Positions 20,461-30,459 of a stretch of DNA of 64,000 nucleotides are shown here, in pieces. The stretch is from contig NC_092637.1 in assembly GCF_039555335.1 (NCBI RefSeq), positions 40,388,526 through 40,452,525 on the forward strand. Direction: 5' to 3'. The position numbers and the translations under genes were made by a program. The notes beneath the pieces were generated by a model. It was not told the DNA's origin. It saw only the letters and a program-made list of their open reading frames with translations, and made no database searches. Origin of the DNA: Amphiura filiformis (Eukaryota > Echinodermata > Ophiuroidea > Amphilepidida > Amphiuridae). How positions within the stretch are numbered: the stretch's first letter is position 1; each line of letters begins with the position of its first letter.

Positions 20461-20629
20461 TAGGCGAGTTGTAGTGACAGCTACCACAGGTAGTGGTAAA
20501 ACTACTCTGGTATCACTGTTGTACAATTATTATCACGCAGGACTAAATTGCCTAATATTAGTGAAACGCGTCTTATATGCACGACGACATCTGTATCATC
20601 CCGGACTCGAAAGAAAACAAACACATTGA
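20461..20629 (+). pseudogene. P-loop (Walker A) fragment, copy A
   Basis: An open frame ending at TGA 20627-20629 reads TTGSGKTTLVSLLYNYYHAG, then LNCLILVKRV. The motif A-T-T-G-S-G-K-T satisfies the Walker A consensus [AG]x4GK[ST], typical of P-loop NTPases such as NACHT, ABC or AAA-type proteins. There is no visible Walker B or other domain and no ATG in a good context. Related fragments lie at 21060, 21640, 22879, 23075, 30112 and 30391, so it belongs to a locally multiplied exon-sized unit. Family beyond 'P-loop' is not assignable. Confidence 0.4.
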
Positions 20630-21059
20630 CAGAAATTATGTTGCATATTTAGCATATCATTTTAATATCTTTTATTCATCTTCTTAATATGATAATACAC
20701 ATTAACATAACCCATATAGCTACTTCATCATCGTATGCAATATCTTAGTGAATTTTATTTAAACGTGTACGCCATTGACACATACATGTACAAGGATGAT
20801 AGACACAGTGTTATATAATAGAGCAAGCACACTTTCTAAATTCTTAAATATTCCAAATCGGGATCCCCGAATCGCACAATCCCACCATTTTCTAAAACTG
20901 AACTTTATTTTAAGAAGCATGTCATAATTTTATTATATCGATGCTTATATAGTTCACAGAAATATGATGGAACTGCGATGTAATATACTGAACTCAACCT
21001 TCCAAGTTAAAATGCTATATGTTAAAAAATATTTGCAAAGCAGAGTTTGTTTTTTGACT
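20630..21059. other. Intergenic, no gene recognised
   Basis: AT-rich spacer between two P-loop fragments. Nothing recognised. Confidence 0.5.
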
Positions 21060-21242
21060 TGAGAAGAGTTAAAAGAGTTGTGGTAAAAGTATTTTGCTGT
21101 CATTGTTGATTATGATATTATATGTAAGACTAAATTGCCTATTGATGACATACATGTTAATATGCAACACAACAACAGTTTCTATATCTATGGTTGAATT
21201 TTAAAACCATCCGTCAGTCACTATATACTAATGATCATACAC
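21060..21242 (+). pseudogene. P-loop fragment, copy B
   Basis: One frame reads SCGKSILLSLLIMILYVRLN followed by CLLMTYML, ending at TAA near 21204. It shares the xGK[ST]xLLSLL core and the LNCL phrase with copy A. The glycine-rich start of the motif is incomplete. Nucleotide similarity to 22943-23052 continues past the stop (CATCCGTCAGTCAC and an ACTAATGAT phrase), so the duplicated unit includes flanking non-coding DNA. Confidence 0.35.
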
Positions 21243-21463
21243 GTAAGGCCGTGTAAAATTAATATTTTGGTTCTCATCCCCTCCCTCCTCAATTTCTGGG
21301 ATTTGTCAGATTTTTTTGATTTTTTTTCTCTTTTTTAGTTTTTAAACTTTGGAATGATTTATGAAATCTTCATACATATAAATAAGTTTATTAGAGAACA
21401 AACATCACTTCCAAGTCTTTTTGCGGTACCCTAGGAGGAATAATCCCTCAGAATCTCACATTT

Positions 21464-21580
21464 GAAAAAAAAAAAAAAAAAAAAAAAAGGCCTCATCGTT
21501 TCCTCGAGCACTGTTGGAGGAGACCGAAAACTACTGACAATGCTAATTTTACATTGAAAAAAAAAAAAAAAAAAAAAACA
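21464..21580. repeat. Two poly(A) tracts
   Basis: Runs of about 22-25 A at 21464-21488 and 21556-21578 flank a short segment (CCTCATCGTTTCCTCGAGCA). They may mark the ends of retroposed sequences or be simple expansions. Confidence 0.8.
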
Positions 21581-21639
21581 CCTCCCTCCTCATCAATTCA
21601 TGAAAATCCTGTGGACGAGAACCAAAACATTAATTTTAT

Positions 21640-21765
21640 ACGGCCTAATACCAAGACAAATTTGACAAAGATCGTAGAGCTTGCAAGCACGTGTAAAACA
21701 TTACGCGATGCTATTGATGATAATCCAAGTAGTGGTAAGACTACATTATTGTCAAAGTGAACCTG
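21640..21765 (+). pseudogene. P-loop fragment, copy C
   Basis: The frame reads VELASTCKTLRDAIDDNPSS followed by GKTTLLSK and a stop. Copy E at 23075 aligns over VELxxxCKTL and SKTTLLS, which supports a shared ancestral exon rather than chance. A third partial repeat of the upstream words (GAACTTGTAAGCACGTATGA) lies at 21855-21874. An A-rich tract encoding poly-Lys precedes it, so the apparent start codon at 21554 is not meaningful. Confidence 0.4.
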
Positions 21766-21874
21766 CACCAAGAAATTATATAGGCTTAATGATAACGAAA
21801 TGGTCGTAATATTTCTATGAGGTATGAGAAAAACTGTCAAAATTGTTTATAATGGAACTTGTAAGCACGTATGA

Positions 21875-28071: not shown

Positions 28072-28085
28072 GTTGCTATGGTAAC
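28072..28085. promoter_or_regulatory. RFX X-box-like site
   Basis: GTTGCTATGGTAAC closely fits the known X-box consensus bound by RFX factors (GTTNCCATGGNAAC), with the two half sites GTTGCTA and TGGTAAC. The surroundings (27980-28130) are slightly richer in GC than the flanks. No gene is recognised next to it, so function is inferred from the motif only. Confidence 0.35.
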
Positions 28086-28473
28086 TAGGAGGATGGTGAG
28101 ATGCGGAGGCCCGAAGGAGGTCATAATAAACGGGTATCTATTGTGAAATACAATAAAATATATGCGAGTAGTTGGTGATGCCATTTTAATCTGACAACTT
28201 ATTTTTATCATTAACAAAAAGATTCTATAAATGGATAGGTTGCGAAAAAAAAATTATTTTGAACGTCTATGGTTATTTGGAAAAAGCACATAATTATATT
28301 TGATAAGTAAAAAGTATTCAACATATTGGTTTATTTAATAGACAGAGTAAAATATAATTCTTTTTTGTAAACCTTGGCATAATTTTTTTAAATTATTTTT
28401 TATCATAAAAATATTTTTGTAAGACTGCTAAATCTATTTAGTATTCGGGTTGTAATTGGGCGTACTTTAGGCA

Positions 28474-28663
28474 TAAATAAAAAAAAAACAAAAAAAAAAA
28501 AAAAAAAAAAAAAAAAAAAAAAAAAAAAAAAAAAAAAAAATGAATGAATGAATAAATAAATAAATAAATAAATAAATAAATAAATAAATAAATAAATAAA
28601 TAAATAAATAAATAAATAAATAAATAAATAAATAAATAAATAAATAAATAAATAAATAAATAA
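28474..28663. repeat. Poly(A) followed by (AAAT)n
   Basis: About 67 bases of nearly pure A (28474-28540), then TGAATGAATGAA and about 28 AAAT units. The minus-strand ORF with IYLF repeats in this region is an artefact of the microsatellite. The order poly(A) then tetranucleotide fits a retroposon tail with expansion. Confidence 0.95.
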
Positions 28664-30111
28664 TATAATTTATGTGTCATCAGCAAAACAAAAATAGATT
28701 TAAACAGCCTGTGTTCAAAATAAATGACCCACAATTACACAAATTGAACTGTTTCATAATTTCAATCGATACAAATCATGTAGCTCCATTTAACAGTACG
28801 GTTATTAGCTTACTGATGTTTCCTTGATTAAGCAATATTTAATAACCTTCGTTACAGCAACTTCAATGTAAGGTAAAATTATTTAAATTGAATTCATTAT
28901 CCCACAGCAGTCTAGTAATTGAATGGATACTCTGCGCCACTAGGAGCATGTACATTCTCATCTATCAGACCCAAGTTCTGTAAACCCAATATGTTCGTAC
29001 ACTTATAGAATAACCTTTGAATCTGTTGGGTACAAAAACTCATATTCTACAACATGAGGTCAATGTTTAAGCCATGGTTCTCGAATATAGGTTATTGAGC
29101 TTTGACGCTGGAATTGAGACAGTGTTGGCGCATACTGCGTTAATATCAGTTGAACTATCCATGCATGCTGATTATGATTAACAACATGATTAAAATAATA
29201 ATTACTGTACTTTTTTTCAATATGTATATACTTCCAATTGGTAGAAAAGTACGGCATAACAAAATTATGTCAGTGAAATATAAAATATTTCAAACCTTCG
29301 TCCGTACTTTTTAAATTAGTCACCAAGGCGTGTTAAGCAGATACGAACCATTAAACATGTAAAAAATAATTGCGGTCAGATGCACTTTCCCTATAATCCG
29401 ATTTTTAGTCACGAGATTTCATCTTTTAAAAAAATGTGCATGATTTTTTTTTATAAATGTTGGAGGCTTTAAAAGCACGTAAATTAGTTTTTAATTTGAT
29501 TGACGTGCTTTGCATATTGTGCGCCGCGTTGATAAGGCTAATTAGGGCTATACACGTATCTGTTATTAGCAAGAGAGCCAACAGCTACACATAGTACATA
29601 AATGCAATTCACCATTTAAGTGTGACATTGTAGCGTTGATATAAATACTGTGACTTTTGACACGTATGTATACGTATATTTTAGATACACAAATATTAAC
29701 AAAAATAAATATATAATATAAGATTTGTAATTATAAACAAAATGTCTGAAGGGAAATAGCTTTGACATAGCAAACAAATCACATTTTTAAATAAATATAT
29801 TATTATTAATAATACACATGATAATGAAAGCTTATGTCTGTAAGTATGATTGTATGTATCTATCACGATGACACAATATTCATGGGATTAATGCAATAAT
29901 TATAATCAAAACAATGAGGTATGATAAATGGTTAAGTCTTTCTTATATTCAGTCTAAAAAGTTGAACACATGTACTTTGATATGTGACAATCATTATTTC
30001 ATACAAACACGCCTGGTATAAACAATTTGGCAGTCTAAAAGATTTCAAAGATTATGAAAAAGTAAACATGGCAAAATTGCTATATAGTAAGCAAAAGAGA
30101 ATCAACGTAAT
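28664..30111. other. Intergenic, no gene recognised
   Basis: AT-rich, no domain or repeat recognised on either strand. Confidence 0.45.
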
Positions 30112-30246
30112 ACACGTTCCAGGATATGTAAAAGCACTATGCTGTCATTGTTGTTTTTGATAATCCACGTAATAGGTGTGCCAGGACGTGGTAAAAGCAC
30201 ATTACTGACACTTTTGCTTATTCTTATGTGTGACGCACATTCATAA
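30112..30246 (+). pseudogene. Double P-loop fragment, copies F1 and F2
   Basis: One open frame encodes two successive P-loop-like segments: a weak one, RICKSTMLSLLFLI, and a strong one, GVPGRGKSTLLTLLLILM, ending at TAA 30244-30246. Between them the DNA word TGATAATCCACGTAATAG matches TGATAATCCAGGTAATGG of copy D (22890). G-x4-GK-S is satisfied in F2 (G-V-P-G-R-G-K-S). This is a local tandem duplication of the motif within ~75 bp. Confidence 0.4.
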
Positions 30247-30375
30247 TAACCTGATTACAATTCCACATCAGAACCCCAAATTAAGACTATTTACGCTTCT
30301 GCCAATTTTGTCGTATTGGATAAATCACACTTTCAATATGAAAAGTAAAAGAGCTAGCACGTATTATGATGATGA

Positions 30376-30459
30376 GAATCCAAGTTACTCGGGGTACCAG
30401 GACGTGGTAAGAGCACTTTACTGTCATTGTTGCTTATTCGTATGCGTGAGGCACATTAA
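30376..30459 (+). pseudogene. P-loop fragment, copy G
   Basis: The frame from 30391 to TAA 30457-30459 reads GVPGRGKSTLLSLLLIRM followed by REAH. It is the closest relative of F2. The upstream DNA, GATGATGAGAATCCAAGTTA, matches GATGATAATCCAAGTAG of copy C (21715), linking the 30 kb and 21 kb groups. No further domain follows. Confidence 0.4.

Follow-up and report, generated by a model that had tools for sequence, protein, structure and literature searches.

A decayed repeat family with P-loop-like cores

The window analysed here, a 64-kb stretch of the Amphiura filiformis genome (NC_092637.1, positions 40,388,526 to 40,452,525), contains a decayed repeat in eight plus-strand copies whose translations resemble the P-loop (Walker A motif) of P-loop NTPases. 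They fall into two groups, A-E (20,440-23,300) and F-H (30,085-30,560), and their cores start at 20486, 21073, 21725, 22897, 23133, 30119, 30181, and 30397 for A to H, respectively. The original prediction had described at least eight P-loop-like segments as one family; all eight quoted peptides were found on the plus strand, and both nhmmer and profile searches confirmed a DNA family. The features are listed below with their positions in the window.

20440..20612, plus strand: copy A; P-loop reading ATTGSGKTTLVSLL, then LNCLILV in frame; found by single-copy and profile searches
21034..21246, plus strand: copy B; 3' extension reaching the inserted inverted-repeat element; aligns to D; found by nhmmer and profiles
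21247..21645, no strand assigned: element between B and C, resembling a miniature inverted-repeat transposable element (MITE); 34-bp inverted ends, 91% complementary
21649..21794, plus strand: copy C; 5' extension (VELASTCKTL), 3' side truncated; found by nhmmer and profiles
21852..21935, plus strand: possible ninth remnant, weak; E 1.2 in a profile search
22860..23060, plus strand: copy D; opens the uninterrupted D-E dimer; found by nhmmer and profiles
23061..23300, plus strand: copy E; second unit of the D-E dimer; core 236 bp past the D core
30085..30165, plus strand: copy F; degenerate, core short of one base; A-E profile E 2e-3
30150..30310, plus strand: copy G; GVPGRGKSTLLTLLL; strict Walker A; A-E profile E 7e-4
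30350..30540, plus strand: copy H; GVPGRGKSTLLSLLLIRM; strict Walker A; core 216 bp past the G core; A-E profile E 6e-6

When single copies were used as nhmmer queries, other copies were retrieved with E-values down to 4e-16, as for B to D (6e-16), D to E (4e-16), and G to H (4e-13), and more weakly for F to H (1.6e-4) and D to H (4e-4). Some pairs were missed by these queries; C retrieved E at 7e-6 and D, A, and H no better than 0.08-0.45. A profile built from A, B, D, and E retrieved C at 1.2e-5, and the A-E profile, with F-H held out, retrieved H, G, and F at the values listed above, its top match in the reversed window being 0.018. With the F-H profile, D (1.2e-6) and B (2e-4) were clearly retrieved, and A (0.03), C (0.22), and E (0.62) were no better than the reversed-window background of 0.015. 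Across the four profiles, the top reversed-window matches were 0.015, 0.018, 0.024, and 0.44.

Neither the single-copy nor the profile searches found a ninth clear copy in the window. The score of the possible remnant at 21852-21935 was equalled in 500 shuffles by 0.2% against E, 1.8% against C, 9% against H, 9.8% against G, and 30% against D. In the shuffled pairwise alignments, from which D-E, F-G, F-H, and G-H were excluded because their regions overlapped and gave self-matches, A-C hardly exceeded its shuffled maximum and B-C fell under it. A degenerate DNA pattern gave 5 matches against 0.01 expected; being derived from the copies, it is not independent evidence.

The shared words pointed out in the original prediction were recovered. 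VELxxxCKTL is common to C and E, and AATCCA words occur in C, in D, between F and G, and ahead of H. LNCL, which had been assigned to A, B, D, and E, reads in phase with the P-loop in A, B, and E and stands in a different frame in D.

Head-to-tail layout and inserted elements

The unit is a head-to-tail repeat of ~216-250 bp. The cores are spaced at 236 bp in D-E, 216 bp in G-H, and just 62-63 bp in F-G. The B and C cores are 652 bp apart, or ~250 bp once 402 inserted bases are skipped, and the intervening element (~400 bp; arms 21246-21279 and 21613-21646) has TAA flanks on both sides. With the insert skipped, the alignment of B-C with D-E through the joint scored 110.5, against single-region shuffled maxima of 15.7-24.4; B-C is the same dimer as D-E, split by the element. 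Intact A-B and C-D joints were not seen. In register, 31 of 112 aligned positions differ in D-E and 12 of 74 in G-H.

A second MITE-like element lies just 5' of copy A (19,925-20,285), with 59-bp ends that are 98% complementary and TTAA at both ends. The interval between the two groups holds scattered direct and inverted words of ~40-116 bp at 23640-26255, among them words with CCATTTGAAAT and GTGTGGGA. Within 19.8-23.7 and 29.5-31.3 kb, neither group is enclosed by an inverted repeat of at least 16 bp.

A serious, though less probable, alternative to a coding origin is that the copies are a neutral satellite-like tandem array, for example the central repeats of a non-autonomous element of the Helitron/Helentron type, in which the Walker A reading would be an accident of a single DNA word that is repeated. 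Monomers of ~216-250 bp do stand head to tail here (D-E, B-C past the insert, and G-H), as in satellite-like arrays, and a random 236-bp unit of the same composition has a strict Walker A in one frame or another in ~0.7% of cases, which its copies would inherit. In the oyster Crassostrea gigas, one study (PMC7492417) describes short arrays of 100-500-bp monomers as common (14,591 arrays, 56% with 2-3 monomers), Helentron-type elements as carrying the arrays of the 13 largest clusters, and some monomer clusters as having only short conserved segments in common, a core-limited similarity like that reported in the next section. The oyster Cg_HINE elements, as described there, likewise form short head-to-tail arrays, mostly of few monomers each; however, their monomers are mostly 140-180 bp and 8.5-21% divergent within a cluster, so that the period and divergence in the present window do not fit these families closely. 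Moreover, the inverted-repeat search around the groups identified no ends of such an element.

Core-limited similarity and codon pattern

Within the A-E group, most pairs aligned across 90-200 bp in the single-copy nhmmer searches. Between the groups, in contrast, the likeness is limited to the ~50-bp Walker-A-like core, at offsets from 0 to ~48: all eight core comparisons beat every one of 200 shuffles, whereas in the same test the flanks came under 5% in one of eight comparisons downstream and in none of eight upstream. The original prediction of a repeated motif with shared flanking words is corrected on two points: the unit proved to be the longer head-to-tail one, and the two groups have the core alone in common.

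The strict PROSITE pattern [AG]x4GK[ST] is satisfied by three of the eight copies in their present state (A, G, and H) and failed by the other five, which narrows the original prediction. Five further strict matches occur elsewhere in the window; 30 simulated windows had a mean of 2.0 and a maximum of 6. For the tighter pattern GK[ST][TSI][LM], the six frames together hold six matches, every one within a copy (A, B, C, D, G, and H), against a mean of 1.0 and a maximum of 3 in simulated windows. The likeness to a P-loop goes past the GKS/T word, with a hydrophobic strand before it in copy A and an LLSLL-like helix start after it in most copies, a point that speaks against a chance motif in a neutral array. 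The core readings of A, B, D, E, G, and H (TGSGKTTLVSLL, KSCGKSILLSLL, PGNGKSTLLSLL, TSCSKTTLLSPL, PGRGKSTLLTLL, and PGRGKSTLLSLL, respectively) are, judged by their sequence, a P-loop and the beginning of the next helix.

Substitutions were then classified by codon position in six of the eight copies (A, B, D, E, G, and H), C being omitted as it breaks off within the core and F for its one-base loss; the analysis comprised 24 tests, uncorrected. In the between-group core, the least change was at codon position 2 (uncorrected p 0.004-0.08). That the likeness between the groups is restricted to the ~50 bp coding for the loop, with position 2 spared, argues against a neutral array and is consistent with divergence under translation.

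Comparison with protein families

Seven direct readings of the copies were compared with Pfam. The STAND-type P-loop NTPase domain nSTAND3 (PF20720) was the top match for A alone (E 0.0029, 17.8 bits) and was listed behind other families for F-G and H; C gave a weak F-box-like match (E 0.15). Among five hand-joined composites, nSTAND3 was first in four (E 2.9e-5, 6.9e-5, 2.8e-4, and 0.18) and unlisted for the fifth. It scored 21.1 bits with the joined C+A peptide and 23.0 and 24.2 bits with the two best composites, in which residues before the P-loop had been filled in by hand. The gathering score of 27.2 bits was never reached by any direct reading or composite. When whole frames were read with X in place of stops, nSTAND3 led in one frame of A-E (E 0.0034), and ABC_tran led in the F-H frame (5e-4) with nSTAND3 fifth. 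The matches span the P-loop and part of the next helix, and some include a few residues ahead of the P-loop; unlike in nSTAND3, no Walker B was seen.

In controls with shuffled flanks, nSTAND3 was still listed for 8 of 10 (E up to 0.05) at up to 18.1 bits, against 21.1 for the C+A composite, and a different P-loop family scored up to 20.9 bits. Since these controls come near the real score, the nSTAND3 signal would come mostly from the motif, with a small share from the flanks, and nSTAND3 is no more than a candidate family. The copies have a P-loop of a form broadly similar to that of NACHT/NLR proteins; however, the highest score listed for NACHT (PF05729) was 15.4 bits, where the cut-off is 26.7, and many other P-loop families ranked ahead of it, and no LRR or death-fold family was listed in the three forward frames of 20.3-23.4 and 29.6-31.3 kb. 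The NACHT/NLR origin suggested in the original prediction is thus not favoured, and the broader search for NACHT/STAND-type families put nSTAND3 often first in composites and brought none to its cut-off.

Other searches gave a similar picture. With three peptides, NCBIfam gave weak matches, mostly to general P-loop families and far under the cut-offs (best 25 of 33, for the first peptide). In a PDB sequence search with a hand-filled composite, the best 60 of 259 matches appear to be P-loop proteins of a general kind, among them midasin, RecA, and ABC transporters, which is uninformative. A VirJ match (E 0.006, under cut-off) in an off frame of the F-H stretch was judged to be chance. In the literature, no title among those listed suggested a P-loop-coding tandem repeat, a result limited to those titles.

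The copies might instead be remnants of a mobile element, an alternative also raised in the original prediction, or of a virus-derived gene, which itself encoded a protein with a P-loop (a helicase or a packaging ATPase, for example). Several inverted-repeat elements do lie in the neighbourhood, and helicase families are among the weak P-loop matches. However, in the forward frames of the stretches that hold the copies, transposase and helicase families all stayed under cut-off, the joined C+A peptide gave 42 pattern matches in one scan of viral contigs and no confirmed relative, and, as noted above, neither group is bracketed by inverted repeats. We therefore consider this origin unlikely.

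Surroundings of the repeat

The window has the look of animal DNA. Its G+C content ranges from 31 to 47% per 4 kb, with many tandem and inverted repeats. A 703-aa uninterrupted reading on the minus strand (33,177-35,288, within 33177-35381), apparently intronless, has RING, B-box, and NHL matches, which we take to be the typical animal TRIM architecture (TRIM-NHL type). A 36-bp minisatellite (45509-46977; ~41 copies, 91% match) lies within the most G+C-rich 4-kb step and has long open readings on both strands, as expected for a period divisible by three. A 27-bp unit (ATCTTCAGTAGATAGCAAATTAATGTT and relatives) forms arrays at 9797-10489, 11475-12432, and 15160-15335, the third apparently in opposite orientation as judged by eye. 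A 146-bp unit is tandemly repeated at 792-2225 (9.8 copies; alternatively 292 bp, 4.5 copies from 910). Neither ARAGORN nor Rfam (gathering scores) gave a match anywhere in the window; a tRNA-like stretch upstream of D (22,700-22,786), read by eye, was dropped as it had no tRNA match in Rfam.

Probable origin and decay of the array

The eight copies are one family on the same strand, arranged head to tail, similar between the groups in the core only, and broken in frame. The explanation that we favour, with a probability of roughly 50%, is that part of some P-loop NTPase gene, about the size of an exon (~216-250 bp), was tandemly multiplied at this place and is now dead. The ancestral segment would have comprised the P-loop together with the strand that precedes it and the beginning of the helix that follows. 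Its duplication may have given rise to two lineages, which drew apart at a time when they were still translated, so that the loop stayed similar and the flanks drifted; both lineages would then have expanded head to tail through unequal exchange, and the copies would have decayed via stops, indels, and the insertion of other elements, such as that between B and C. We infer the coding ancestor, the order of these events, and the lack of present function from this single locus. The exon-level amplification of a P-loop segment put forward in the original prediction agrees with the arrangement in tandem, with the restriction of the between-group similarity to the core, and with the codon pattern seen between the groups.

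Several results weigh against a coding origin. The codon signals are weak and uncorrected: with 14 codons, p was 0.035 (position 3 above position 2) and 0.081 (position 3 above the rest), the six copies pooled gave 0.015-0.16, and G-H alone gave 0.07-0.20. With copy F omitted, one of two pooled Fisher tests gave p 0.24, and the P-loop frame ranked first in just two of seven single pairs. Among A, B, D, and E themselves the pattern is absent (p 0.24-0.65). Across six consensus alignments, the P-loop frame carries 0-3 stops and is the most open alone in two, tied in two, and beaten in two, and the majority consensus is without any consistently open frame. Such indifference to codon position within A, B, D, and E and such a lack of an open frame favour the neutral array. 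On the protein side, the direct readings of B, D, and E matched no Pfam family, all Pfam scores listed for copy readings sit under their cut-offs, and neither Walker B nor any other domain at cut-off was found in the forward frames searched above.

A further reading, in which the array is what remains of a tandem-repeat protein with units of ~79 residues, each with one P-loop and in frame across the joints, seems very improbable to us; we know of no described protein built of such units. If it were true, a P-loop exon would have become a tandem repeat, coding first and satellite-like later.

For the favoured array of an NTPase-gene piece, the finding is at most a small example, of limited reach, of a gene segment that became a local tandem repeat and then died. 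Should the parent gene turn up intact and with this exon, the array would put a date on an expansion of the NTPase gene and would show satellite-like growth beginning from coding DNA.
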